From assembly GCF_028681615.1 (NCBI RefSeq), contig NZ_JAQUHV010000005.1, positions 62,001 through 126,000 on the forward strand: a stretch of DNA of 64,000 nt, given 5' to 3'. Under the pieces are notes generated by a model. That model saw only the letters and a list, made by a program, of their open reading frames with translations, made no database searches and was not told the origin of the DNA. The translations under genes and the position numbers were made by a program. This document shows, in pieces, positions 35,638 through 52,263 of the stretch. The stretch is from Sulfuricurvum sp. (GTDB lineage: Bacteria > Campylobacterota > Campylobacteria > Campylobacterales > Sulfurimonadaceae). Numbering within the stretch: the stretch's first letter is position 1; each line of letters opens with the position of its first letter.

Positions 35638-36417
35638 TTAATTTGTACAAGCTTCAATAAAAATTCTTCCTAATGATGTAATTGAATAAAATGATTTATC
35701 TATATCCAATGTATCCATAGGTTTATACTTTTTATTTAAAACATCATTTTGATATCTTTCTTCATCATTTGTATATTCTCTCTTTATTTTATTATATATC
35801 TCATCATCTGTTCTAAATAAACCATTATTATCTTGTAAAATACTCAACGATACTAAATTTTCTAAATGTATAACAACTTGTTTTGGAGTTAAATTTAATT
35901 TTTTTTCTATTCCAGTCAATTTCAAAGATAATTCACGATAACTAGCATCAGTCGAATTAACAGCTTTAAAAATTATGTAAGAAATATCCCCTGGATTTTC
36001 TTTGAAGTATTCAAGTAATCTCGCTTCATCCGGTGCAAGACTATTTAATTTTTGTATAAATCCTGGATGGATCAAATCTACTTTACTTTTATTCGATGCA
36101 TTTGCAAGTAAATTAGCAAAAACATTGGCTAAATCTTCATTACTTGTATAACTCAACTTTTCCATAATTGGGATCGCAATTTCAGGTTCAACCTGTTTTA
36201 TATTTTCTTCCACTATGTTTTCAAGTTTTTCTGCATATTTTGCAAAGTTTCTTTTCGCATATACATTTCCAAATTTTATTGGTAACGTCAAAGTATTAAA
36301 CAATCCAAATACATTACCTAAAGCTTCACCAACTTGTCTAGCTGAAGGTAAAGCTAACTCTTTTAAAATATCATTAGCTGATTCTGACAGATCAGCTTTT
36401 ATAGGTAATTCTGGCAT
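35638..36417 (-). CDS. DUF4393 / Abi-alpha-like protein
   Basis: The 259-residue protein fits the DUF4393 family, also named Abi_alpha from proposed abortive-infection use. Features are an N-terminal glycine/alanine helix (about 22-50), the L-A-N-V-F-A-N-L-L-A-N-A-S-N-K motif near 105-120, H-P-G-F-I-Q-K-L-N-S-L-A-P-D-E-A-R-L-L-E-Y, and a winged-helix-like C-terminal half. The DNA is markedly more AT-rich than both flanks, with frequent AAT/AAA/TTT codons, suggesting recent transfer. It is a lone gene, converging on pyk with 5 bp between, under a palindrome-covered promoter. A defence role is inferred from the family name only. Confidence 0.75.
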   Translation of the reverse strand: MPELPIKADLSESANDILKELALPSARQVGEALGNVFGLFNTLTLPIKFGNVYAKRNFAKYAEKLENIVEENIKQVEPEIAIPIMEKLSYTSNEDLANVFANLLANASNKSKVDLIHPGFIQKLNSLAPDEARLLEYFKENPGDISYIIFKAVNSTDASYRELSLKLTGIEKKLNLTPKQVVIHLENLVSLSILQDNNGLFRTDDEIYNKIKREYTNDEERYQNDVLNKKYKPMDTLDIDKSFYSITSLGRIFIEACTN

Positions 36418-38119: not shown

Positions 38120-39763
38120 TCAGCAATTATACATTTTAACATAATATTCATGCACCATACGTCCAGAGTCGAATGCAGGAATAACATCCCTCATCGCATT
38201 TTTCATCATTTGACACCATTGTTCAGGCCGGTCGTAATACATCGGTATGATCTCATTTTCAAGAATATCCATCAGATTTTTGTTATCTTCATGATCTTGT
38301 ACTTCGATCGGAGTGCTGTGGTCGATTGGAGGAATCGTAAAGGCGTTGAATCCGTGTTTGGCAAATTCCGGATGCCAACCATCATCCGTTGAAAAATGGA
38401 TCGAACCGTTCATACTCGCCGTCATACCGCTCGTACCGCTCGCTTCACGTGAGACACGCGGCGTGTTTAGCCATATGTCAGAGCCTTTTTTGAGGGTACG
38501 GGAGAGCTCAAGCTCGTATCCTACGAGAACTGCCATATTTTTGATTCCGTGACTGATATAGATGAGTTCGTTAAACGCATTGACGGCATTAGTATCAAAC
38601 GGATACGGCTTACCTGCCCAAATGACCTGAATCGGTTTTTCGGTGCGTTCCAACAGACGTTTAAAACGGGCAAAATCGTGTTTGAGCAATCCCGGACGTT
38701 TGTATTCGGCAAAACGACGAGCCCAAACAATCGTCAAAATATCAGGGTTGAACATTTTACCCGTCTGATCGGCGACCACATTAAACAAATTGCGTTTGAG
38801 GTGTTTTTTGCGTCCTGTCAAAGCATAATCTTCGTGTTCATCCAATGCGGCAAGCATCCCGTTATCCGACCAGAAACGTCTGTTTTGGGCATTGGTAATA
38901 TGGATGATTTCCGATCTTCCGGCACAATGTTCCCACATACGGTTTGCAACCTCACCATGCATTTTTGAGACGGCATTGGTAATCTTGGATGATCGCAAGG
39001 CCCCAACCGTGAGGTTAAAATTATTTTCTTCATGCATAAGCATAATAGAACGAACAGTATCCAATTCCAACCCGTTAAAAAAACCGAATTTATGAAGTAA
39101 ATCTATATTATGCTGTTCATTTCCCGCATCTTCAGGGGTGTGCGTTGTAAATACAACCCGTTTCTTTACCTCGTTCATGTCCCGATATTTCGAATAGAGC
39201 TCATACACCAATGGAAGTGCATGCCCTTCATTCATATGATAGATATCGATCTTTTGTCTCAATGCTTCCAGTACTTTTACCCCACCGATACCCAAAACGA
39301 CCTCTTGGGATATACGAGTCTCTTCATTCGCATCATAAAGTTTATGAGTGATGGTTCGTGCTAAAAAGTCATTTTCCGGAATATCGGTTGAGAGAAGAAT
39401 GACCGGAGCGGAACTGAAAACATTAGGCGGCAAGTAAAATGCTTTGACATGAACATCTTTTGAATGGATGTTGACGATCGCCTGCACTCCGAGGTCTTCG
39501 AGAAAATAGTAATGTTTTCGGATAAATTCCATTTCCAAACTGCGATCTTCATGTCGGGACTGATCGTAATAGCCGAAGCTCCATAATATCCCGACACCGA
39601 CGACATTTTGACGTAGATCGTAGGCACTTCGCATATGGGAACCGGATAAGAATCCCAATCCGCCCGAATACGTTTTGAGCGCTTGATGGATTGCAAACTC
39701 CATTGAAAAATAGGCAACACTGGTAGAGTACTTTGGGTCAATTTCGTAATCATGGAGAATCAT
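38120..39763 (-). CDS. glgP: Alpha-glucan phosphorylase family protein (GT35), PLP lysine replaced
   Basis: The 547-residue GT35 protein of the short bacterial type starts with Y-F-S-M-E-F-A-I-H and G-G-L-G-x-L-S-G, and has H-M-N-E-G-H-A and W-A-R-R-F-A-E-Y-K-R. Phosphorylases release glucose-1-phosphate from glycogen using PLP bound to a lysine in G-T-S-G-M-K or G-N-M-K. Here the codon is ACG, giving G-T-S-G-M-T448. Members of some lineages may share this, but classical catalysis is then in doubt. It is the last gene of the glycogen operon, 30 bp after glgB. Confidence 0.85.
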   Translation of the reverse strand: MILHDYEIDPKYSTSVAYFSMEFAIHQALKTYSGGLGFLSGSHMRSAYDLRQNVVGVGILWSFGYYDQSRHEDRSLEMEFIRKHYYFLEDLGVQAIVNIHSKDVHVKAFYLPPNVFSSAPVILLSTDIPENDFLARTITHKLYDANEETRISQEVVLGIGGVKVLEALRQKIDIYHMNEGHALPLVYELYSKYRDMNEVKKRVVFTTHTPEDAGNEQHNIDLLHKFGFFNGLELDTVRSIMLMHEENNFNLTVGALRSSKITNAVSKMHGEVANRMWEHCAGRSEIIHITNAQNRRFWSDNGMLAALDEHEDYALTGRKKHLKRNLFNVVADQTGKMFNPDILTIVWARRFAEYKRPGLLKHDFARFKRLLERTEKPIQVIWAGKPYPFDTNAVNAFNELIYISHGIKNMAVLVGYELELSRTLKKGSDIWLNTPRVSREASGTSGMTASMNGSIHFSTDDGWHPEFAKHGFNAFTIPPIDHSTPIEVQDHEDNKNLMDILENEIIPMYYDRPEQWCQMMKNAMRDVIPAFDSGRMVHEYYVKMYNC

Positions 39764-39793: not shown

Positions 39794-41743
39794 TTATTGT
39801 AACGATTTATCGGCTTTTTTTTGTTTCAAATATACAACCCCAAGCGGAGGCAATGTCATAGAAATGGAGTGTTCCCGCCCGTGTGTCGATGTTTGAAACG
39901 TTTGAAGCGGTTCGTGATTTCCGATACTCCATCCGTGATATTCAGAGGATTGAGAGTTAAATATCTCCACATATTCCCCTTCACTTAGGACTCCCATGTG
40001 ATAGTTTTCACGCGTTGCATCTGCAAAGTTGCACACCACATAGATATCATCTGCGGGATTATCACTTTTACGGACGAAACTGAGACAATTGTGGCTGTAG
40101 TCACGATCGTCTATCCATTCAAATCCCTCACGCATCACATCATACATGTGTAAGGCTCGCTCATCACGGTAAAGACGGTTAAGATCCGAAACCATTTTAT
40201 TCAACCCTTTATGCATCGGGTTGTCCAACAAATGCCAATCAAGAGAACGTTCAAAATTCCATTCGGCATATTGTGCAATCTCTCCCCCCATAAAAAGAAG
40301 CTTTTTACCCGGATGTGCCGTCATATAGGCAAAAAGTGTTCTGAGATGAGCGAATTTTTGGTTGACATCTCCCGGCATTTTATTAATGAGGGAACCTTTC
40401 ATATGAACGACCTCATCATGACTCAGCGGAAGCATAAAGTTTTCATCAAATCCGTACCACATACTGAATGTCAGCTGATGATGGTGATGCTGACGATGAA
40501 TCGGATCATAGCTCATGTATTTCAGTGAATCATGCATCCACCCCATGTTCCATTTGAAACCGAATCCAAGCCCCCCGACACTCACAGGACGGGTCACCAT
40601 CGGATAAGCAGTCGACTCTTCGGCAATCATCATAATATCGCTGAACTCCCCGTATACGCTGACATTAAGTTTTTTCAAAAACTCTATCGCCTCAAGATTC
40701 TCGTTTCCGCCGTAGACATTAGGGATCCATTCCCCTTCTTTTCTCGCATAATTGAGATACAGCATTGAAGCGACTGCATCGACACGGATACCGTCAATAT
40801 GATAACGATCGAGCCAAAACATCGCGGAGCTGATCAAAAATGACTGTACTTCATTACGTCCGTAATTGAAGATGATGCTTCCCCATTCCGGATGGTATCC
40901 CTGACGCGGGTCATCATGCTCATAAAGTGCCGTACCGTCAAAATTGATCAACCCGTGCATATCGACCGCAAAATGCGACGGTACCCAATCCATGATCACG
41001 CCGATACCGTTTTCATGCAGGACATCGATCAGAAACATGAGGTCCTGAGGTGTCCCGTAACGTGCCGTCGCGGCGAAATAGCCGACAACCTGATATCCCC
41101 ATGAACCATCAAACGGATACTCGCTCAGAGGCATGAACTCGACATGGGTATAGTTCATCTCTTTTAAGTAGTTCACTAGCTCCGTAGAGAGTTCCCGATA
41201 GCTCAGAGGACGGTTATCTTCCTCTACCTTTCTACGCCATGAGCCCAGATGCATCTCGTATACACTGATCGGTGCATCATGGGCATTGTTGAGATGACGC
41301 TCTCGCATCCAATGTTGATCTTTCCAGTCATATCCTTCCAGACTCCAGACACGAGAAGCCGATTTTGGCGGCTGTTCGCTGTAAAATGCAAACGGATCGC
41401 TTTTATCATGGACGATATTATGAAATTTGGAAACGATATGATATTTGTAGGTGAGGCCCTGTTCTACGTTCTCTATAAAACCTTCCCATATTCCCGATTC
41501 GTCTGAGCGCAGTTGCAAAGGATGCGATGAAGTATTATAATGGTTAAAATCTCCGCGCACACTGACATAGGATGCATTGGGAGCCCATACTGCGAAATAT
41601 ACACCGGCGTTCCCTTCATGCACCATTACATGAGCGCCGAGTTTATCGTAGAGCTTTGTATGCGTCCCTTGTTTAAAGAGATAGATATCCATCTCGCTCA
41701 GTCTGGAGACCTCATAACTGATGGGGTGATTTTGGTTGTTCAT
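39794..41743 (-). CDS. glgB: 1,4-alpha-glucan branching enzyme
   Basis: The 649-residue GH13 enzyme makes alpha-1,6 branches in glycogen. An N-terminal CBM48 domain (about 30-120; F-A-V-W-A-P-N-A) precedes the barrel with D-W-V-P-S-H-F, the nucleophile region D-G-I-R-V-D-A-V-A-S-M-L-Y, the acid E in I-A-E-E-S, and L-S-H-D-E-V-V-H. A C-terminal beta domain follows. Length and motifs are normal. Its ATG overlaps the end of the preceding glgA (ATGA), implying translational coupling. Confidence 0.96.
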   Translation of the reverse strand: MNNQNHPISYEVSRLSEMDIYLFKQGTHTKLYDKLGAHVMVHEGNAGVYFAVWAPNASYVSVRGDFNHYNTSSHPLQLRSDESGIWEGFIENVEQGLTYKYHIVSKFHNIVHDKSDPFAFYSEQPPKSASRVWSLEGYDWKDQHWMRERHLNNAHDAPISVYEMHLGSWRRKVEEDNRPLSYRELSTELVNYLKEMNYTHVEFMPLSEYPFDGSWGYQVVGYFAATARYGTPQDLMFLIDVLHENGIGVIMDWVPSHFAVDMHGLINFDGTALYEHDDPRQGYHPEWGSIIFNYGRNEVQSFLISSAMFWLDRYHIDGIRVDAVASMLYLNYARKEGEWIPNVYGGNENLEAIEFLKKLNVSVYGEFSDIMMIAEESTAYPMVTRPVSVGGLGFGFKWNMGWMHDSLKYMSYDPIHRQHHHHQLTFSMWYGFDENFMLPLSHDEVVHMKGSLINKMPGDVNQKFAHLRTLFAYMTAHPGKKLLFMGGEIAQYAEWNFERSLDWHLLDNPMHKGLNKMVSDLNRLYRDERALHMYDVMREGFEWIDDRDYSHNCLSFVRKSDNPADDIYVVCNFADATRENYHMGVLSEGEYVEIFNSQSSEYHGWSIGNHEPLQTFQTSTHGREHSISMTLPPLGVVYLKQKKADKSLQ

Positions 41744-43212
41744 AGCCCTCTTCTCCCCTGTGAAATCTTGTAATACAGTGCTTCGTATTCGAGTGCGGAG
41801 CCGTTCCAGTCAAATCGTTTGTGCATGGCATTGTTCTGCATTTGTTCAAATCCTCTGCGGTCATTGTACCATGTATGAACTGCCCATCCGACGGTATTGA
41901 CAAGCGCATCGGCTGACGCATCGTAAAATTTGAATCCCGTCCCGTGCGTTTGGTCGTTTTGATAGTTTTCGATCGTATCATCCAACCCGCCGGTAGCACG
42001 TACGATCGGCAATGTCCCGTAACGGAGGCTGTATATCTGATTCAAACCGCACGGTTCAAACAAAGACGGCATCAAAAACATATCGCTTCCCGCTTCGATT
42101 TGATGGGCAAGATCATTTCGGTATCCGATAAAGCAGCCGAATTTATCGGGGTGTTTATGGGCAATATCACTGAAATAATGTTCCGCCCATTTCTCTCCGG
42201 CACCGAGCATAACGATCTGAATATCCATTTCCAAAAGCTTCCAAATCGCATGTGCCAAGAGTTCAATCCCCTTTTGCTCCGCGAGCCGACCAACCAAACC
42301 GATCAGGGGAACATCCGCTCTTTTGGGTAAATGAAACGACTCCTGCAATGCTTCTTTACAAAGTGCTTTACCGCTCATATCCCCAACATCGAATGTATGC
42401 GAAATAAAGGTGTCCTCCGCAGGGCTCCACTCTTCATAATCGATCCCGTTGAGTATCCCGTAGAGTTTATACGATACATGGTCGATCAGATTTTCCAATC
42501 CCCATCCGAATTCTGGAGTACGGATTTCATCGGCATACTTTCGGCTGACGGTAGTAATGGCATCCGCATGAGTAATCCCCCCTTTGAGAAGATTGACCCC
42601 ATCATATTCTTCCAGTTCATAGAAATGATCCCATCCGATTCCGAGGACGTCCATTAGCCCCTTATAGAACCTTCCTTGATGCTGAAGATTGTGGATTGTG
42701 AGCAAAGATCCCGTAAAAGCGAAATCCGGATCGTAGGTATACAGTGTATTGAGCATTACAGGAAGCGCAGCCGTATGCCAGTCATTGGCATGGATCACAT
42801 CAGGATGAAAACGGATCATTTTAGATAACTGCATGACGGCACGGGAAAAGAAGATAAACCGGTTGTCGTTATCGTTAAAACTGAATCCGTCCTCTTCGTA
42901 CAACCCTTTTCGCCCGAAATAGCCTTCATGCTCAATGAAATAGACAGGAACATCGCTTCCCGGTAATAGCCCCTCATAGACCGCAGCCCACTCTTCGCCC
43001 ATAATTCCCATCGGTACCCCGAGAGAACCTTCCATAGGTGTCAGAGCGTATTTTTCCCGATCTACGACATAGTACCGCGGCATCACAACCCGAACATCAT
43101 GTCCCAGAGCACGCAGTGCTTTCGGTAATGCACCGACCACATCCGCCAAACCGCCTGTTTTGGCAAACGGTACAACCTCTGAAGCAGCGATCAAAATGTT
43201 TAGTTTATCCAT
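41740..43212 (-). CDS. glgA: Glycogen synthase, copy 1
   Basis: The GT5 starch/glycogen synthase, about 490 residues, extends alpha-1,4-glucan from an NDP-glucose. The N-terminal K-T-G-G-L-A-D-V-V loop near 19-27 binds the nucleotide sugar. H-A-N-D-W-H near 130 and the C-terminal E-P-C-G-L-N-Q-I-Y-S-L-R-Y-G-T motif complete the active site. The chosen start is ATG at 43212 with AAGGA six bases upstream; an in-frame TTG one codon before is possible. It lies 47 bp after a second, different glgA. Confidence 0.95.
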   Translation of the reverse strand: MDKLNILIAASEVVPFAKTGGLADVVGALPKALRALGHDVRVVMPRYYVVDREKYALTPMEGSLGVPMGIMGEEWAAVYEGLLPGSDVPVYFIEHEGYFGRKGLYEEDGFSFNDNDNRFIFFSRAVMQLSKMIRFHPDVIHANDWHTAALPVMLNTLYTYDPDFAFTGSLLTIHNLQHQGRFYKGLMDVLGIGWDHFYELEEYDGVNLLKGGITHADAITTVSRKYADEIRTPEFGWGLENLIDHVSYKLYGILNGIDYEEWSPAEDTFISHTFDVGDMSGKALCKEALQESFHLPKRADVPLIGLVGRLAEQKGIELLAHAIWKLLEMDIQIVMLGAGEKWAEHYFSDIAHKHPDKFGCFIGYRNDLAHQIEAGSDMFLMPSLFEPCGLNQIYSLRYGTLPIVRATGGLDDTIENYQNDQTHGTGFKFYDASADALVNTVGWAVHTWYNDRRGFEQMQNNAMHKRFDWNGSALEYEALYYKISQGRRGL

Positions 43213-43259
43213 CAATTTCCTTTTAATGCGCTCATCTTATTATGAATTATAAAGTTTTT

Positions 43260-44681
43260 TTACTTCGATATACTCTCATACAGACGACTATACACTTTTG
43301 CGCTCTCAGACCAGGAGAAATCGCATTCCATGTTGTGGTTGGCAATCTCTTCAAATCTTTTCTTATCGATATAGAGCTCACACGCTTTTTGGACGGCTGA
43401 AAGAAGAGCGCGTGAAGCAGGCGTGTTAAATACGATTCCGTACCCAACCGAACTCCCCTCTTTGTAGTTTTCAAATTTTTTCACGGTATCGGCCAATCCG
43501 CCGACTCGATGCACTACCGGTAATGAACCGTATGCAAACGCAATCATTTGATTCAGCCCGCACGGCTCAAATAATGAGGGCATGAGGAGAAAATCACTCG
43601 CTGCATACATGCGGTGCGATAATGCTTCATCATATCCCACATGCAGACTGACATTTTTATGACTCTGTGCGATGGCATTTAACGCCGTGGAATACTCTTC
43701 TTCACCATCGCCTAAAATGGCGATATTGCATTCCAGCGCTGCCATTTTCGGGAGTGTTTCGATCAGCAGGTCGACCCCTTTTTGTCCGGTAAAACGACCG
43801 ATAAAAACAAAAAGCGGTTTCGTGGCCCCTTTAAGAGCGAACTGTTTTAGAATATCGCTTTTAGAAGACTTCTTCCCTTTGACATTTTTATACGTACTCA
43901 CCAGTGCAGTGTCACTCATAGGAGAAAAATGTTCCGGATCGATACCGTTGAGTATCCCTTGAAGTTTTCGGCTATGGAAGCTTAAAAATCCTTCCAAACC
44001 GCATCCGAATTCATGGGTCATAATCTCTTTTGCATAGGTAGGGCTGACGGTTGTAATAAAGTCGGCATATGCGATTCCCGCTTTCATGAAATTGACTTTG
44101 CCGTAGAATTCAACTGCATCCAGCGTAAAATAGCGGCTATCGACCCCTATCTGTTCCAAGACATCCGCTTCAAACACCCCTTGATATGCCAAATTATGGA
44201 TCGTATAAAGCGTTTTGGTCGGTATCATCGGATCTTCGCGTATCAATAATGCGGCCAAAGCACACTGCCAATCGTTGAGATGGAGGATGTCGTAGTGTTC
44301 ACTTCTAAGCAATGCAGCGATGATATGGGAAAAGAGTCCGAAGCGCAATGCATTGTCTTCATAACCGCACTCAGGCGGGCCGTAGAGATAATCACGTTCG
44401 CACAGCAACGGAGCATACACAAAACGGCACTCTACCCCTTCGAACAAACATCCGTATATCTCTATCGTATACTCTTCCCCACCCATCTCAATGTTAAAAG
44501 GTTCATGCAGCAGAGTGATATCATATTTATTCCGATCAATCGAGCGATACAAAGGTAGTATGACATGAACATCATACCGACTGCTTAAAGCCTTGGGAAG
44601 ACTGTGCGCTACATCTGCCAACCCCCCGGTTTTTGCAAATGGATAGACTTCGCTTGCCGCGAACAACACTCTTTTAGCCAT
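43260..44681 (-). CDS. glgA: Glycogen synthase, copy 2
   Basis: The 473-residue GT5 enzyme is clearly paralogous to, but distant from, the next gene. It shares F-A-K-T-G-G-L-A-D-V near 14-23, H-L-N-D-W-Q near 126, F-I-G-R-F-T-G-Q-K-G-V and E-P-C-G-L-N-Q-M-I-A-F-A-Y-G-S. All key motifs are kept, so it should be active; a different donor or a role in initiating new chains is possible. Its start overlaps the galT end by 8 bp. The pair points to early duplication or separate acquisition. Confidence 0.93.
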   Translation of the reverse strand: MAKRVLFAASEVYPFAKTGGLADVAHSLPKALSSRYDVHVILPLYRSIDRNKYDITLLHEPFNIEMGGEEYTIEIYGCLFEGVECRFVYAPLLCERDYLYGPPECGYEDNALRFGLFSHIIAALLRSEHYDILHLNDWQCALAALLIREDPMIPTKTLYTIHNLAYQGVFEADVLEQIGVDSRYFTLDAVEFYGKVNFMKAGIAYADFITTVSPTYAKEIMTHEFGCGLEGFLSFHSRKLQGILNGIDPEHFSPMSDTALVSTYKNVKGKKSSKSDILKQFALKGATKPLFVFIGRFTGQKGVDLLIETLPKMAALECNIAILGDGEEEYSTALNAIAQSHKNVSLHVGYDEALSHRMYAASDFLLMPSLFEPCGLNQMIAFAYGSLPVVHRVGGLADTVKKFENYKEGSSVGYGIVFNTPASRALLSAVQKACELYIDKKRFEEIANHNMECDFSWSESAKVYSRLYESISK

Positions 44682-45678
44682 GATTATCTCCTCGTAAAAG
44701 TTTTGCCGCCAATTCCGGTTCCACCGGATTGATCATCATCTCCGTACTGATTTCAAACCCGCCGAACCGATAGATTCTGGGCATTATTCGAACGATCAGA
44801 CGATGTGCGTCACATGCGTGTGATTCATCCCCTAACGGCGGTGTCGAAACCCAAAGGTTAAAGGCAAATTTGCTCAACTGCCCAGATAGTTTTTCCATCA
44901 CTGCAACAAGCAAAGATGCAAGTTCATCCAAATGTTCATCACTCACAGTATCGATCTGGCCGACACATTTTTTCGATCCGATCATAACCTCAAAGGGATA
45001 ACTGCTGGCAAAAGGACAAAAAGCGCTGAAGTCGCCCCGTTTTTCGATCATCCGTACCTCAGCTTCCTCCTCATCATTGATGATCGATTCCATTAAAGAG
45101 CGATTATAGTGCTGCATATACTCACGACTTCGACGGTAAAAATCACGCTGGGATTTTGGAACAAGCGGTAGTCCGATCAACTGCGTATGACAATGGCTTT
45201 GGGTTGAACCGGCATCGTAGCCTTCATTTTTAAAAAGGGAGATAAAGGTTATACGGTGATCGCGTCGTAAATCATCTACCCTTTGACGCAGTGTTTTAAG
45301 CCATGAGAGCATTTCATGATGATTCCATTGAGTCATTGAGAGATGATGCTTCGGGGTATCGATAATCACTTCATGCGCACCGAAGCCGTCCCAATACTCG
45401 AAAGTTCCGGCATGGTGTTGATGTGGTGCTTCGATTGCAACCGCTTTATAGAGGTTGGGAACGACCCGGGTTTGCCATCCCGGTTTATTACTGAGAGTGT
45501 CGGATTCGCGTATCGAAAAAATCTCTTTGGGAGTTGCAGATTCGTTTCCCTCGCAAAACGGACAAAAGAGCTCTGATGAACCTAATGCATCCGCATTGAT
45601 ATTATTAGGACGCTGAAGACGTTCGGGAGCAATAATGACATGGGTATCGTTCATGCGGTCATAACGTATTTCAGACAC
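44674..45678 (-). CDS. galT: Galactose-1-phosphate uridylyltransferase family protein
   Basis: The 334-residue protein of the HIT superfamily has a zinc-binding C-P-F-C near residues 39-42 and the active-site H-C-H-T-Q (H-x-H-x-Q) near 162-166, whose second histidine is uridylylated in GalT. It exchanges UMP/NMP between hexose-1-phosphates. In this operon it may link glucose-1-phosphate with nucleotide-sugar pools rather than galactose degradation, since no galK or galE is nearby. It overlaps both neighbours by 8 bp, so it is firmly inside the operon. Confidence 0.88.
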   Translation of the reverse strand: MSEIRYDRMNDTHVIIAPERLQRPNNINADALGSSELFCPFCEGNESATPKEIFSIRESDTLSNKPGWQTRVVPNLYKAVAIEAPHQHHAGTFEYWDGFGAHEVIIDTPKHHLSMTQWNHHEMLSWLKTLRQRVDDLRRDHRITFISLFKNEGYDAGSTQSHCHTQLIGLPLVPKSQRDFYRRSREYMQHYNRSLMESIINDEEEAEVRMIEKRGDFSAFCPFASSYPFEVMIGSKKCVGQIDTVSDEHLDELASLLVAVMEKLSGQLSKFAFNLWVSTPPLGDESHACDAHRLIVRIMPRIYRFGGFEISTEMMINPVEPELAAKLLRGDNHG

Positions 45679-47701
45679 GGGCTATCTCCAGTGTACCTTC
45701 TACACTCAATGAGGTATCGAAGTCAAAAACAAATGCAATACTAAGACCTTGAACACTCAGATCGAATCCTTGTTCGCTTTGAGACAGTGTCTGAAGTTGA
45801 AAATAGTGGGCATTAAAAGGTTTATCCATACGGAAGGTGATTTTTTTCTTTAAAACAGTATCGATCATCTCAAAGCTTTGGATATGTTCGATACTTCCAT
45901 TTTCTTCAAGCGGTATACCGTTGATCCGTAGCATATCATAATCGGAAAAATGGAAATTATGCTCCATCACATACGCAAATCTCCCTGTCGCCTCACTCTC
46001 CAACGTCATTGTAAAATCAATGGTATCCGCACCGAATGAAAAATTCTTGGTTAGCTTTGTATTCGCTTTCGTGTCGTTGTACAATCCGCCGTTACGCACA
46101 AATGTGATGTGGTTTTTACCCATAGAGGATTCAAAAGGCTGATTGGCAAAATCACCGTACTCACGGAAATTGCAATGACGGAACGACTCACTGTTAAAAT
46201 GTTCATCACTGATATGATCGATAAACGAATTTTTCAAATACCAATCGTAGATGATGGCATCACGAAGCGAATCGTCGAATGAAGCGCTGGCATGATGGAT
46301 CGTATCAATCCCCTCTTCTACGGGAGCCGATTTTTCACGCGGTGCTTCAAACAATCGCTTGTGGTATGCCTCTTTACGTCGGGTCAAAGTATTTTGATAA
46401 TTGAAACACTTATCCCGAATATCAAGTTCCACAAGCTGTCCCCCGTGCGTTGCATCGAAACGGGAAATCAGTTTTGATGTGACCGACTTATATTTCGGAT
46501 AACCGTCGAGTTCGTTGGTATCACTGACCAATACTTTTTTCTTACCGTAGCGGATATTTTCACACTCGATAAGATAGGTATATGCGTTGTCCCGCAAATT
46601 AGGGAGATAAAGTCCTCCGAACACCCCATGCCAGAGCGAATCATTTGTTTGGGCTTTATGCAAAGGGAGTTCAAAATCCCCCTCTCCCGCATGAAACGCA
46701 CGGGATAGTTCGATGGTCCGTTTGTGCAATCGGTTGGATTCGGGATATTTTACAAAAAAGTTTTTCCACGTTCCCCCTTTGAGAAACTTTACCCCTTCAC
46801 GCTCGTAGCGCTCCAGTCCCATCTCCTCTTTCAATGCTTCAAGAGCCAGCGCATCGTCGGCTTTTAGACTCCATTCGCCCATCTCGTAATACGAAACATT
46901 CGGCAGATAGGCAATACCGCGAGGATGATGGGACTTGAAATACTCGCCGTAATGGCGTGTTTCAATCGACTCATCGGCCAATACCGTTTGGACAAATTTT
47001 TGCAGCCACCCTTTTTCATAGACCCACTCATGCGTTCCTGGCCACATACCGAATTTTTCCGCATCATCAAAAATAATTGCTGCCGAATCGTTCTCACGGT
47101 TATACGATTTGATTGCGCGAATAGCACTCTCGACGTTTAAAAACGGTATTGCATAGCGGAGTTTTTGACTGATCGGGAAAAGTCCCATCGGAACTCCGCC
47201 CTCTTCACTCATGAAGTAACCGTCCAATACCTCTTTCTCAAATCCGGCACATTGAAAATGGTAATCATCCATCACCGTATATTTGATTCCGGCACAGTCC
47301 AGATCGGGGATCAAAGCAGACTCCCATACCCGTTCGGTAAGCCATGACCCTTGCGGAGCTTGTGAAAACCGCTCTTTGATCGAATCGTTCAACCGTCCTA
47401 TCTGCGCTACCCGGTCGTCTGAGGGGATGACACTCAGAATCGGTTCATAATACCCCGCACTGAAAAATTCAATGCTCCCATTTTTTGCGAGCATGACTAT
47501 TTTCTTATACAGTGAGGGACGCAATTGCTCTATTCGTTCCATCAGCCAACCGCTGCAATGAACCGAAAATTTAAATTCGGGATATCGGCTCATCACCTCG
47601 AAAAACGGTTCATAGCAGGTTTTTATCCCCAGTTCGATAACCCATTCAAAATTATCCACAGGCTGATGCATATGGATCCCAAACAGCAATGATGTCTTCA
47701 T
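45671..47701 (-). CDS. GH57 alpha-glucan transferase/amylase
   Basis: The 676-residue protein of glycoside hydrolase family 57 shows region 1 H-M-H-Q-P at 10-14, the catalytic glutamate segment W-L-T-E-R-V-W-E near 120-127, D-D-Y-H-F, and the acid segment D-D-A-E-K-F-G-M-W-P. The C-terminal half is beta-rich, as in DUF1925/DUF1926 of 4-alpha-glucanotransferases. It probably disproportionates maltodextrins or trims glycogen. There is no signal peptide, so it acts in the cytosol. It lies 8 bp after another GH57 gene and overlaps galT. Confidence 0.9.
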   Translation of the reverse strand: MKTSLLFGIHMHQPVDNFEWVIELGIKTCYEPFFEVMSRYPEFKFSVHCSGWLMERIEQLRPSLYKKIVMLAKNGSIEFFSAGYYEPILSVIPSDDRVAQIGRLNDSIKERFSQAPQGSWLTERVWESALIPDLDCAGIKYTVMDDYHFQCAGFEKEVLDGYFMSEEGGVPMGLFPISQKLRYAIPFLNVESAIRAIKSYNRENDSAAIIFDDAEKFGMWPGTHEWVYEKGWLQKFVQTVLADESIETRHYGEYFKSHHPRGIAYLPNVSYYEMGEWSLKADDALALEALKEEMGLERYEREGVKFLKGGTWKNFFVKYPESNRLHKRTIELSRAFHAGEGDFELPLHKAQTNDSLWHGVFGGLYLPNLRDNAYTYLIECENIRYGKKKVLVSDTNELDGYPKYKSVTSKLISRFDATHGGQLVELDIRDKCFNYQNTLTRRKEAYHKRLFEAPREKSAPVEEGIDTIHHASASFDDSLRDAIIYDWYLKNSFIDHISDEHFNSESFRHCNFREYGDFANQPFESSMGKNHITFVRNGGLYNDTKANTKLTKNFSFGADTIDFTMTLESEATGRFAYVMEHNFHFSDYDMLRINGIPLEENGSIEHIQSFEMIDTVLKKKITFRMDKPFNAHYFQLQTLSQSEQGFDLSVQGLSIAFVFDFDTSLSVEGTLEIARV

Positions 47702-47709
47702 ACTTTCTC

Positions 47710-49701
47710 CTATATAAACCAGTCGTTTGTAAAGTGTTCATCCAGTTCAAGGACTAAAAATCCGTTTGCAGGCATCGTCTGGATCACAGTTTCTTCCTGC
47801 AGCAATTCAAACCGTAAATGCAATGAAGTATTTGCATCAAAAAATTCGCGTGAGAGTGAAAATTCCAAACGGTTTCGAACACTCTTCGGTTCAAGTATTA
47901 TACGTTGCTCTGTTTCTTGAATGGTTACAGCGACTTGCATATCACGTGAACCGGTAACAAGTCCGACAAATGCCGCATAGAGGGATGTGTCGTCATAGCC
48001 ATAGTAAATAATATCAATAGGGCCGCGTATTCGATCCATTGTCGAAAAGCCCCCTCGCTCATCGATAACACCGCATCCGACCCACTCGAAAAAGGGGCTG
48101 TTTGGGTTACCGATGAGCGGGGAAATCATGTTATGCGGTTTTCGGGTTGTGGGTTTTAATGCTGCATCCGAAATGATCGTATCCCATAAATGCGATGGTA
48201 TCTCTCTCCCCATCAAACGATAAATCTGTATTAAATGTTCTCGAAACAATGCATCAAATTCTAATGAAAACTCCGTGAAATGATCTTCACCATACCACCA
48301 AAACCAGTCACTGCACTCCGATGCAAGCAAATGGTACCGAATCTCTTCCGATATTTTGTTATTGATGCCGTACTGTTCCACAGCTCTGCGTGTTTCGAAG
48401 ATAAGTTCCCACGCACGATTTTTTTCAGGATGTCCTACCCATGTATCGAACGTTCCGTGTATCCAGCTTCCGGGAGTGATATGATCTAACACCGTAATTT
48501 TGGATTCGCGTGACACCTCGTCCAACGTCGCGGTTTTACACCATGAGACAGTGGACAATGCTCCATACAAACCATTGAAAAAATCCAATCCGTTATTGGG
48601 ATAGAATTCCCATGCATTTTCCCCGTCTACTATGACAAAAATATGGGGGGTTTTTTCTCGAAGCGCGATCTGATGAAGGGCCTCCATAAAATGGCTGCCC
48701 GCTTTCGACCCTTCCATATGACGATACTCAAATCCGATCAGATCACTTAGCCCATGGTCACGAAAAGCGATTGTAACTCCATCGAATTTGTAAGGCTTAT
48801 AATGAGATGATGGCGAATTGTTTTGAAGAGTACGATGCAATATCGCTTCATCCGTTGCAATCCATTTTATCCCGAATTCTTTATACAAAGCAATACTTTT
48901 CTCATCGACCGCACCTTCAGCCGGCCAAAAACCGCTCGGTTTGCATTGAAATACACTCTCATACAATGCAATCGAGCGTGCCACATGCTCGCGTGCGTCT
49001 TCGACCAGAGGAAAAGCGGTCGCAGGCAGCTGTGTTGCCGGATTGGCGCGTGAGCCGTTCTCCATATCGATCAACAACGGCAATATCGGGTGGAAATAGG
49101 GAGTCGTTGAAACGGATATAATCCCTTTTCGCTGCAGATCGGCATATAACGGCAATATCTCTTGGACAAAACCGCTCAGTGAATCAAGCAACGCTTTTTT
49201 GTCCCCTTGCGTGTAGCCTTGTTTGTTCAAAAATAAGGTTTTGACACGATCATTTTGGGTTCGGAGATAATTTCCACACCAAGCGAGGAAAAACACCACT
49301 TCTAAATCAATCAGCTCTTCGTCCGAAAAAACTTCCAGATAATACAATTCACTATAGCGTTCTATCGGACGTACCATCGTCTCAAATTGCGTTGAGGTGC
49401 AGAGTTTAATAACCCATTCTCGCTCACTTATACTTAAATCGCCAGGATGCTTCATCCATAATGCAAGAAAAGCATCATATTTTAAAGGTTCACTATAAAG
49501 ACGAAGCTGTTCGATCAATGAAGCACTGAGATTGAATGTTGACTTGAGGCCCGGATAGAGGCTCATCAACCACGGCATTTCATAATAATCTTTAATAGCG
49601 TGTAAAAATACCCAAGGCATTTTCATAACCCCGTCGCTCCCCCTGTAATCGGGCTGATGCATATGCCAGAAAAAAGAGAGACTAAGGGGTTGAGTTTCCA
49701 T
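47710..49701 (-). CDS. GH57 glycoside hydrolase (amylopullulanase-like)
   Basis: The 663-residue GH57 enzyme has the H13-M-H15-Q-P-D-Y-R start of the amylase/amylopullulanase branch, the G-F-W-P-A-E-G region near 258, I-A-T-D-E-A near 282, and V-D-G-E-N-A-W-E near 373. The C-terminal ~130 residues form a separate beta-sandwich-like part (D-I-I-Y-Y-G-Y-D-D). Likely substrates are alpha-1,4 and perhaps alpha-1,6 bonds of glycogen. No export signal is seen. Its ATG shares one base with the stop of the preceding nucleotidyltransferase gene (TAATG). Confidence 0.88.
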   Translation of the reverse strand: METQPLSLSFFWHMHQPDYRGSDGVMKMPWVFLHAIKDYYEMPWLMSLYPGLKSTFNLSASLIEQLRLYSEPLKYDAFLALWMKHPGDLSISEREWVIKLCTSTQFETMVRPIERYSELYYLEVFSDEELIDLEVVFFLAWCGNYLRTQNDRVKTLFLNKQGYTQGDKKALLDSLSGFVQEILPLYADLQRKGIISVSTTPYFHPILPLLIDMENGSRANPATQLPATAFPLVEDAREHVARSIALYESVFQCKPSGFWPAEGAVDEKSIALYKEFGIKWIATDEAILHRTLQNNSPSSHYKPYKFDGVTIAFRDHGLSDLIGFEYRHMEGSKAGSHFMEALHQIALREKTPHIFVIVDGENAWEFYPNNGLDFFNGLYGALSTVSWCKTATLDEVSRESKITVLDHITPGSWIHGTFDTWVGHPEKNRAWELIFETRRAVEQYGINNKISEEIRYHLLASECSDWFWWYGEDHFTEFSLEFDALFREHLIQIYRLMGREIPSHLWDTIISDAALKPTTRKPHNMISPLIGNPNSPFFEWVGCGVIDERGGFSTMDRIRGPIDIIYYGYDDTSLYAAFVGLVTGSRDMQVAVTIQETEQRIILEPKSVRNRLEFSLSREFFDANTSLHLRFELLQEETVIQTMPANGFLVLELDEHFTNDWFI

Positions 49702-52208
49702 TACGCTCTAGACCACTCCTCGATTTTTGCCGTATACAGTTGCACGTAATGTTCTCCTCTTTCATTATTTTTCGCCTGGATCGTGAGATTCAAAGAATCG
49801 TTGTATTGATCCGGAATCATCAGAACCCAATCATCGGTATCGAACCATATTTTGACTCCATCGAGTGTAGAAGATTCTTTTCCTTTCGAGTCTTCGAGGA
49901 ACTTGCGCATCATTTTGCCTTTTAATGCCTGCGTACACGGAAGCTGAATCGTTGTATAGAAAAAATGAGGCAATGATTTGATAATTTCAGAAAGTTTTAC
50001 ACCGTGTGCTACGATCATCTCCAAGATTTTAAGCGTTGCATACATCGAATCTCTGTGGGTTGCAAATTCGGTAAAGGTAAAATTCCCCTCTCCCGTTGCG
50101 ACCAAATCATACGTCTTCATTTTTGATGCTTTGAAATTCGCATATTGTCCCCGTTCAATCTCAAGGTGATCAAAATAAACAATATCTGCTGCCCATGTCG
50201 GGAGGAAAACTCTCATTTTCTTTCCGGATGCTTTTGCTTCCATGTTGAGCAAACTTAACACTACATACAATGATGTTTGTTTGGTAAGCAAAACACCCTC
50301 ATCACTGATGATATCAATACGTTGTCCATGCGGGAAAAGGACGAATCCTGCATCCAGTTTAAGTGCCCGAATTACGGCTCCTATATCATCATACGAGCGT
50401 TTTGCCGTATTATTGATGTTCGCCAGCCGCTGTTCATCTTCATAGGCGTTAAACATAATGTGTTCAACACCCAAGTCATTTAATATGGTTGGGAAGACTT
50501 CTGATGCCAATCCATGCATCACATCTACTGCAATACGGCAATCAAGACATTTAAAACGATGTGACTGCAATACAGTTTCCATCCCTTTTTTATATTCATG
50601 ATATTCACGTTTATGATCAAGAGGAAAAATCTGTCCTATTTGAGTGTAGTCAACACGACGAAACGTCTCTTTGAAAAATGCTTTTTCTATTTTTTTCGCG
50701 ACATCATTATTGATACGCAACGCTTCATTGTTATAAAAAGTAATAACGGTACTCGTCGGATCATCGAGTTTTTGATTGAAATGGACTCCGGCAGTGTAAT
50801 TTTCATGAAACGAAAGGCTGCACCGCATGACGGCAGAAGGGATAGCATTATAATCAACAACATCGACTCCGGACGAAAGGAGCCCCCCTAAAAACGCCCG
50901 TTTCAACATTCTAGAACTTTTATCGTAATGGCGGGAAACCAACACGGTAGAGCCGACTGGAAGCTGTGCTCCGAACGATTCAGCCAGTTTGGTCGCCATT
51001 TCACATGAGAGTTCAATGTTTGATTTTCCGATAACCATCCCGTGTTCAAAAATTGAATTTTTGTATTTGCTTCCCAGAATAAGACTACGGCTTACAATTG
51101 CGGCATCTTCAATAACTTTGTTCGGCCAGATAGTGACGTCTTTTTCGATCGTCACCAACTCTCCGACTTCACACCCTTCCGCTAGGATCAATCCCGATTT
51201 AGCGGTCACATTTTTACCGATTTTATTGTAATTACAGATAACACAGCCGTCTAGCTTGGCATTTTTCCCGATCTCAACATCGTCCCATATTACACTGTTC
51301 GCGACTTTAGAAGAACTCCCGATTGTGACGTTATTGCCGATAACGACATTACTCAGTTTCGTTCCCCGTTTTACCGTTACATTTTTTCCGATCACTACGA
51401 TACCGACTACTTCAACACTTTCATCCAACGTATTGTCTTCTTCGCAAATCAACACACCATCGAGATATTTTACTGCTTCTCCGCCAAGTTCAAATTTTAT
51501 TTTTCCACTCAGGATATCCTCATATACATCACGGTAACTTTCAGGATTTCCTACGTCACGCCAATACCCTTGGGCATATCCGGCCATCAAATCGATCCCT
51601 TTTCGCATCAATAATGGGAACAAATCTTTCGCAAAATCAAAATTTTCATTTTTTGGGATATAGTCTAAAATCTCAGGTTCGATGATATAGATACCTGTGT
51701 TGATCGTATCACTAAAAACTTCTCCCCAGCTCGGCTTTTCGAGGAACTTTTCTATTTTTCCCTCTTCATTCGCTATGACAACACCAAATTCCAGAGGATT
51801 CTCAACCGATGTGAGCGTAATGGTCAATTTTGATTGTTTGGATTTATGATAATCAAAAATTTTCTGAAAATCGAAATCCGTTACCAAATCGCCGCTGATA
51901 ATGATAAAGTTTTCATTTCCGATATATTCTTCTGCCTTTTTAACCGCACCGGCCGTTCCGTAATCGTCATCCGGAATGACATAAGTAATATCAATTCCCC
52001 ACTTGCTTCCGTCTTGGAAATAATCTTTGATAACGTCTGGTTTGAAATAGAGGAGGATAATGAACTCTTTGATTCCCAAATTCCGCAAACTCACTATAGT
52101 ATGTTCCATCATCGGACGGTTCATAATCGGTAACATCGGTTTAGGGATAGAATTTGTAAGCGGCTGAATACGTGTACCGAATCCGCCAGCCATGACGACA
52201 GCTTTCAT
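49701..52208 (-). CDS. Sugar nucleotidyltransferase fused to a degenerate phosphohexomutase domain
   Basis: The 835-residue protein starts with a nucleotidyltransferase domain (1-235; G-G-F-G-T-R near 9-14 and a K-P-M-L-P loop), as in mannose- or glucose-1-phosphate nucleotidyltransferases. A left-handed beta-helix of hexapeptides (about 250-375) comes next, then a phosphomannomutase-like region (380-835). In that region the phosphoserine loop T-A-S-H-N-P is replaced by G-V-H-F-N-Q and the metal loop D-G-D-x-D-R by F-P-H-G-Q-R, so mutase activity is unlikely. As first gene of the glycogen operon without glgC, it may supply the NDP-glucose donor. Confidence 0.85.
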   Translation of the reverse strand: MKAVVMAGGFGTRIQPLTNSIPKPMLPIMNRPMMEHTIVSLRNLGIKEFIILLYFKPDVIKDYFQDGSKWGIDITYVIPDDDYGTAGAVKKAEEYIGNENFIIISGDLVTDFDFQKIFDYHKSKQSKLTITLTSVENPLEFGVVIANEEGKIEKFLEKPSWGEVFSDTINTGIYIIEPEILDYIPKNENFDFAKDLFPLLMRKGIDLMAGYAQGYWRDVGNPESYRDVYEDILSGKIKFELGGEAVKYLDGVLICEEDNTLDESVEVVGIVVIGKNVTVKRGTKLSNVVIGNNVTIGSSSKVANSVIWDDVEIGKNAKLDGCVICNYNKIGKNVTAKSGLILAEGCEVGELVTIEKDVTIWPNKVIEDAAIVSRSLILGSKYKNSIFEHGMVIGKSNIELSCEMATKLAESFGAQLPVGSTVLVSRHYDKSSRMLKRAFLGGLLSSGVDVVDYNAIPSAVMRCSLSFHENYTAGVHFNQKLDDPTSTVITFYNNEALRINNDVAKKIEKAFFKETFRRVDYTQIGQIFPLDHKREYHEYKKGMETVLQSHRFKCLDCRIAVDVMHGLASEVFPTILNDLGVEHIMFNAYEDEQRLANINNTAKRSYDDIGAVIRALKLDAGFVLFPHGQRIDIISDEGVLLTKQTSLYVVLSLLNMEAKASGKKMRVFLPTWAADIVYFDHLEIERGQYANFKASKMKTYDLVATGEGNFTFTEFATHRDSMYATLKILEMIVAHGVKLSEIIKSLPHFFYTTIQLPCTQALKGKMMRKFLEDSKGKESSTLDGVKIWFDTDDWVLMIPDQYNDSLNLTIQAKNNERGEHYVQLYTAKIEEWSRA

Positions 52209-52236: not shown

Positions 52237-52263
52237 GTTCAGCCAATACTGTATCGGCTGAAC
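52237..52263 (-). promoter_or_regulatory. Hairpin in the leader of the glycogen operon
   Basis: Perfect arms GTTCAGCC/GGCTGAAC (8 bp) with an 11-nt loop lie 29 nt before the start codon at 52208. No T run follows on the minus strand, so it is not a plain terminator. It may be a regulatory RNA structure or a protein-binding site. Confidence 0.5.

Follow-up and report, generated by a model that had tools for sequence, protein, structure and literature searches.

A nucleotidyltransferase fused to a phosphohexomutase half without its catalytic loops, a candidate glucosyl-donor enzyme for glycogen synthesis in Campylobacterota

Fusions of a sugar-1-phosphate nucleotidyltransferase to a phosphohexomutase-like half have already been described, and from the published descriptions we take the cd05805 family ("MPG1", mannose-1-phosphate guanyltransferase), SCO1388 of S. 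coelicolor and Sll1496 of Synechocystis to belong to the same fusion family as the protein considered here. A 2022 paper (PMC9426568) lists cd05805 with those alpha-phosphohexomutase subfamilies whose distinct reactions are known, and SCO1388 has been presented as apparently bifunctional, its disruption adding no phenotype (PMC5982138). Among open-licence papers, none was found that describes the mutase half as dead or assigns the fusion to glycogen synthesis in Campylobacterota, none was found on Campylobacterota glgC, and PMC9426568 was the only one on cd05805. The architecture is already known; what is new is the reading of the mutase half as dead and of the enzyme as having a role in glycogen synthesis. 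KONJAC (with VTC1) is a non-catalytic regulator of GDP-mannose pyrophosphorylase. Similarly, GMPPA is a non-catalytic relative that regulates a catalytic pyrophosphorylase (PMC11228364).

Architecture of the fusion and state of its mutase loops

The fusion gene lies on the minus strand (49701..52208) of the window, that is, the whole stretch of 64,000 nucleotides that was analysed, in a host genome assigned by its relatives to Sulfuricurvum. It is a real open reading frame of 835 codons with an ATG start; a plus-strand reading was rejected, that frame being full of stops. The protein of 835 aa comprises a sugar-1-phosphate nucleotidyltransferase, a left-handed beta-helix and an alpha-phosphohexomutase-like half that appears to be dead. 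The NTP_transferase domain (residues 2-233, 51510..52205, minus strand; Pfam E 1.7e-55) has the motifs GGFGTR, PKP, DYGTAG, SGD and FLEKP intact, which bears out the original prediction of a normal NTP-transferase with GGFGTR and KP; these active-site motifs are held, invariant or nearly so, in the full-length relatives examined, the Bacillota members reading GGEGSR. The hexapeptide beta-helix (residues 256-354, 51147..51443, minus strand; Pfam LbH_EIF2B E 3.1e-20) is followed by the mutase-like half (residues 390-832, 49713..51041, minus strand), where Pfam finds PGM_PMM_I at 393-517, II at 538-636 and III at 695-747. AlphaFold and Foldseek recover a four-domain phosphohexomutase fold in this half (pLDDT about 90, monomer only), matching the Thermococcus PGM 9du5 with E 3e-29 and a TM-score by target length of 0.85. 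In the same monomer model the two halves have no confident mutual placement (pTM 0.68), linker residues 367-380 fall below pLDDT 50, and confidence is low as well for residues 8-30, which surround the G-loop.

The loop registers were taken from alignment to the PMM/PGM enzymes of P. horikoshii (1wqa) and Thermococcus and to the host's own GlmM. All four catalytic loops are gone in this alignment, in agreement with the claim that the mutase half had lost its catalytic residues. On the minus strand throughout, the former phosphoserine loop (TASHNP) now reads GVHFNQKLDDP (residues 474-484, 50757..50789), the former metal loop (DGDADR) FPHGQR (residues 625-630, 50319..50336), the former sugar loop (GEENGG) VATGEGNFT, with Glu replaced by T705 (residues 703-711, 50076..50102), and the former phosphate loop (RASGTEP) MIPDQYNDSL, with Arg replaced by I798 and Ser by D800 (residues 797-806, 49791..49820). 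The metal loop had been read correctly, DGDADR of the P. horikoshii enzyme aligning with F625-P-H-G-Q-R630. For the phosphoserine loop, given earlier as GVHFNQ, the loss stands, there being no Ser-His, and the register does not: TASHNP aligns with NQKLDD, and the catalytic Ser falls a few residues past the claimed position, at K480 (MAFFT) or Q479, so that the register from the solved enzymes replaces the former one. RASGTEP of the active enzymes aligns with IPDQYND of the fusion, and the losses in the sugar and phosphate loops come in addition to those first noted. Judged from these loops, the C-terminal half keeps the phosphohexomutase fold and is predicted to be incapable of acting as a mutase. 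Nor is it needed as one, because three other phosphohexomutases with intact motifs, namely GlmM, a PMM/PGM and a PGM of 545 aa, are encoded in the same genome.

All four loops are also lost in about 100 relatives from eight phyla, and the losses are therefore not due to chance or sequencing error. Among 100 family mutase halves, the sugar-loop Glu and the phosphate-loop Arg are each kept in 0/100, whereas the first, second and third metal-loop Asp are retained in 34, 4 and 1, respectively; a Ser occupies the aligned phosphoserine position in 27/100, His being absent among the ten residues seen at the position that follows. The phosphate-loop Arg has become Leu or Ile in 95/100 and the Ser of this loop Asp or Glu in 98/100. 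No member examined brings together Ser-His, the metal triad and the phosphate Arg, and no fusion member with intact loops was found in Cyanobacteria, Actinomycetota, Bacteroidota or Bacillota. Ranked by conservation within the half, the old phosphoserine loop lies at the 38th percentile, the sugar loop at the 54th, the metal loop at the 73rd and the phosphate loop, which carries a new W-x-L-x-x-P-D signature, at the 90th. The conserved residues are found mainly outside the old loops, at the start of domain I and in K763-G-x-x-M-R768 and D783-G-V-K786. As far as the aligned loops can tell, the sequences contradict the published bifunctional view of the family.

Family spread, selection and stand-alone copies

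Full-length relatives occur in Campylobacterota (including Desulfurellaceae), Aquificota, KSB1, Ignavibacteriota, Bacteroidota, Bacillota, Actinomycetota and Cyanobacteria, and the full-length matches from Actinomycetota, Cyanobacteria, Bacteroidota, Bacillota and Aquificota are collinear over about 830 aa. Since the same loss is found across eight phyla, the dead mutase is an old family trait and not peculiar to glycogen. In the tree, the dead halves group together (100/100), separate from three active mutases, and the Aquificota and Campylobacterota members form one clade on a long stem; with an outgroup this small, a single ancestral loss is the simplest interpretation but is not proven. 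Where synonymous change is unsaturated, dN/dS ranges from 0.02 to 0.03 in the NTP domain and from 0.02 to 0.09 in the mutase domains, and the dead half is kept by purifying selection. The base-binding motif reads D[YF]GTAG in Campylobacterota, Aquificota and Bacteroidota and mostly PLGTAG in Cyanobacteria, Actinomycetota and Bacillota; its use as a guide to nucleotide choice was abandoned as undiagnostic, because Bacteroidota share DYGTAG without nearby glycogen genes.

Three Sulfuricurvum genomes carry, besides the fusion, the dead half alone (459-492 aa, 42-44% identity; L077:8889-10367, L078:8879-10357 and L079:8741-10120, all on the plus strand). The stand-alone copy is nested beside a fused member in the tree and therefore derives from a fusion by loss of the NTP half; its dN/dS of 0.12-0.13 indicates constraint. 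As these genes show, the dead half can persist without physical linkage to the transferase. In L079 the stand-alone gene adjoins filamentous-phage genes (Zot, a protein IV-like secretin and a replication initiator), and the layout in L077 is similar. In S. kujiense a second full-length fusion, 88% identical to the window copy, is located on plasmid pSULKU01 (L070:12035-14572), outside a glycogen context, with patatin and RND efflux genes behind it. Immediately upstream of one intact fusion gene is a duplicate of part of its 5' end (L009:8001-8354), and G011 has a similar fragment; the idea that the L009 gene had been split by an insertion was rejected, the intact gene being preceded by the duplicated fragment.

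Glycogen genes and the glucosyl donor

The fusion was expected to head a glycogen operon without glgC, and so it does: the gene ends overlap or are closely spaced, and no protein of the genome passes the GlgC cut-off. On the minus strand, the fusion gene shares a 1-base overlap with a GH57 glycoside hydrolase gene (47710..49701; Pfam PF03065 E 7.9e-49), which is followed by genes for a GH57 alpha-amylase/4-alpha-glucanotransferase (45671..47701; Pfam PF09095, PF09094, PF03065), a GalT-like nucleotidylyltransferase with an HCHTQ motif (44674..45678), two copies of the glycogen synthase GlgA (copy 1, 43260..44681, 504 bits, above the TIGR02095 cut-off; copy 2, 41740..43215, 533 bits, also above cut-off), a GH13 glycogen branching enzyme GlgB (39794..41743; Pfam CBM_48, Alpha-amylase, Alpha-amylase_C) and a glycogen/maltodextrin phosphorylase family protein (38120..39763; Pfam PF00343 E 2.2e-14). 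The order fusion-GH57-GH57-GalT-GlgA-GlgA is kept in Sulfuricurvum, Sulfurimonas and Sulfurovaceae relatives. In Dethiobacter-type Bacillota (about 32% identity), a GlgM/GlgA-like GT4 gene precedes the fusion, with three GH57 genes nearby including a branching enzyme, and among 30 loci of the cyanobacterial phylum, 8 have a GT4 gene of the same type immediately next to the fusion; no glycogen-type neighbours of the fusion were found in Bacteroidota, Ignavibacteriota or KSB1. The GalT-like protein (44674-45678), which passes no GalT cut-off, is conserved across Campylobacterota and in the Aquificota locus L034, and may recycle a nucleotide sugar, e.g., as an ADP-glucose phosphorylase. A promoter and terminator scan gave consensus matches only; the interval separating the fusion gene from an ArsS-type sensor kinase gene contains a terminator-like hairpin of 12 pairs (52237-52263, minus strand). 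At 35638-36417, flanked by genes for a pyruvate kinase and a PAS-GGDEF protein, is a gene whose product has an Abi_alpha (abortive infection) domain.

The distribution of these genes was followed in 200 Campylobacterota genomes at least 90% complete, with GlgA and GlgC scored by curated cut-offs. The full-length fusion and GlgA were each present in 27/200 and the two sets are identical (p 5e-34, a nominal value, as the genomes are related and kinship is uncorrected), and GlgC was over cut-off in 0/200. The 27 genomes span 8 families; the window's own family has some members with both fusion and GlgA and some with neither. As the fusion occurs exactly where GlgA does, it probably replaces GlgC, and that it would supply the glucosyl donor to GlgA in Campylobacterota is well supported; with GlgC absent from the 200 genomes and the two sets equal, the original suggestion that the enzyme makes the glucan donor is very probably right. 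Of 61 Aquificota genomes, 15 have the fusion and 38 have GlgA, which is present in 14 of the 15; none (0/61) has GlgC. About 24 of the 38 GlgA genomes have neither an intact fusion nor GlgC and, as most Aquificota GlgA genomes are without the fusion, some GlgA must use another donor source. A broken fusion adjoining GlgA was seen in one Aquificota genome (G293).

The sequence of the NTP half most resembles GDP-mannose pyrophosphorylases and the cyanobacterial UDP-glucose pyrophosphorylase type, not GlgC, so that homology does not fix the nucleotide and the sugar. The fusion scores 141 bits against the GlgC model TIGR02091 (cut-off 424.9) and 257.7 bits against the mannose-1-phosphate guanylyltransferase model NF052502 (Rv3264c-type ManC, cut-off 440). 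A clear GalU (404 bits) is encoded in the host genome and, given the separate and intact GalU, PGM, GlmM and PMM, UDP-glucose and mutase activity are independent of the fusion. The availability of UDP-glucose through GalU mildly favours ADP-glucose, which on these comparisons would be the most likely product, held with a confidence just past the halfway mark; UDP-glucose, a possible but doubtful candidate, would come next.

Role of the non-catalytic half and comparison with known systems

The explanation that we prefer, and regard as fairly probable, is that of an active NTP:hexose-1-phosphate nucleotidyltransferase that feeds GlgA in the place of GlgC and carries a dead mutase half as a selected non-catalytic module. 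Glucose-1-phosphate would come from the separate intact phosphoglucomutase and from glycogen phosphorylase, and the nucleotidyltransferase half, whose activity and NTP choice we infer, would make the glucosyl-nucleotide donor for the operon's two GlgA proteins, replacing GlgC. The dead half would be retained by selection as a non-catalytic module that determines the oligomeric form, relays some signal to the transferase, or both, in the manner of GMPPA and similar dead paralogues of GDP-mannose pyrophosphorylases. For this putative structural or allosteric role, a scaffold is preferred with modest confidence on the strength of the conserved patches outside the loops, and the half may have a non-canonical ligand site or an allosteric function. 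In a more tentative scenario, to which we give limited credence, a hexose-1-phosphate mutase would have turned, early and once, into an obligate non-catalytic module of the downstream nucleotidyltransferase in a large part of the bacteria; the hybrid would have taken over the GlgC step in Campylobacterota and relatives, and the dead mutase could also be set free as a separate protein with its own regulatory role.

The original prediction saw in the dead mutase a sugar-phosphate sensor, in which glucose-6-phosphate, glucose-1-phosphate or glucose-1,6-bisphosphate would be sensed at the old active site and the transferase regulated. Enzymes of glycogen-donor synthesis such as GlgC are commonly allosteric, which counts for this reading, as does the mutase fold kept under purifying selection. 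Moreover, herring PGM5, an inactive phosphohexomutase, still binds glucose-1-phosphate (PMC7761743); PGM5, however, keeps its substrate-binding site, whereas in the fusion the metal and sugar loops are lost, the phosphate-loop Arg is kept in no member and the Arg and Ser are almost uniformly replaced by Leu/Ile and Asp/Glu. Three of the four old loops are not specially conserved, although the phosphate loop is. The dead mutase is also family-wide in at least eight phyla, including lineages without nearby glycogen genes, which weakens the sensor claim further, and we consider it unlikely. Still less probable is a GDP-mannose pyrophosphorylase for mannan or glycolipid, standing among glycogen genes incidentally. 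For the NTP half, the top relatives in NCBIfam and PDB do include mannose-1-phosphate guanylyltransferases, and the S. coelicolor relative has been listed as a ManC candidate (PMC5982138); its disruption, however, added no GDP-mannose phenotype (PMC5982138), the score of 258 bits is far below the ManC-model cut-off of 440, and both the exact co-occurrence with GlgA in 200 genomes and the conserved operon order argue for glycogen. The notion of the mutase half as an unselected relic on its way to being lost, which the missing catalytic loops and an evolution somewhat faster than that of the NTP half might suggest, is largely refuted by a dN/dS far below 1 in every mutase sub-domain; full-length versions of the half persist in at least eight phyla, its AlphaFold fold is confident, even the stand-alone copies are constrained, and a relic is very improbable. 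Hardly credible is a mutase that works through other catalytic residues and an unusual mechanism, since, for all the aligned Ser and first metal Asp kept in about a third of members or fewer, none examined combines Ser-His, metal triad and phosphate Arg, and the replacement residues are not conserved as a new catalytic set.

With the MPG1/cd05805-type proteins, likened here by their descriptions, the fusion shares its architecture (about 830-850 aa), and relatives from Streptomyces and cyanobacteria can be aligned over their entire length and have lost the same loops; the literature calls the type bifunctional or catalytic, whereas the loops point to a dead mutase half. A standing annotation would in this way be corrected, the widespread "bifunctional" family having one functional active site. 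The Campylobacterota/Aquificota clade is tied to glycogen genes. GlgC (TIGR02091), an NTP-transferase with a beta-helix, has the same inferred place in the pathway; the fusion adds a mutase half and belongs to a different subfamily. Campylobacterota glycogen synthesis, with GlgC missing throughout the phylum sample, gains a specific and testable donor-making candidate. Among solved structures, the CugP-type UDP-glucose pyrophosphorylase (tlr0611, PDB 8x7s) comes closest to the NTP half in sequence-profile comparison and is without a mutase half. Herring PGM5 (PMC7761743) is also an inactive phosphohexomutase fold and, unlike the fusion family, keeps its active site and substrate binding. The Thermococcus and Pyrococcus PMM/PGM enzymes (9du5, 1wqa) have the same fold as the C-terminal half at 22% identity, and their catalytic loops are all intact. 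In GMPPA/GMPPB and VTC1/KONJAC the partner is a paralogue of the pyrophosphorylase and forms its own chain, whereas the fusion has a dead mutase joined to the transferase in one polypeptide; it may represent a natural and deeply conserved case of a metabolic enzyme that became a non-catalytic partner to the enzyme acting after it in the pathway.
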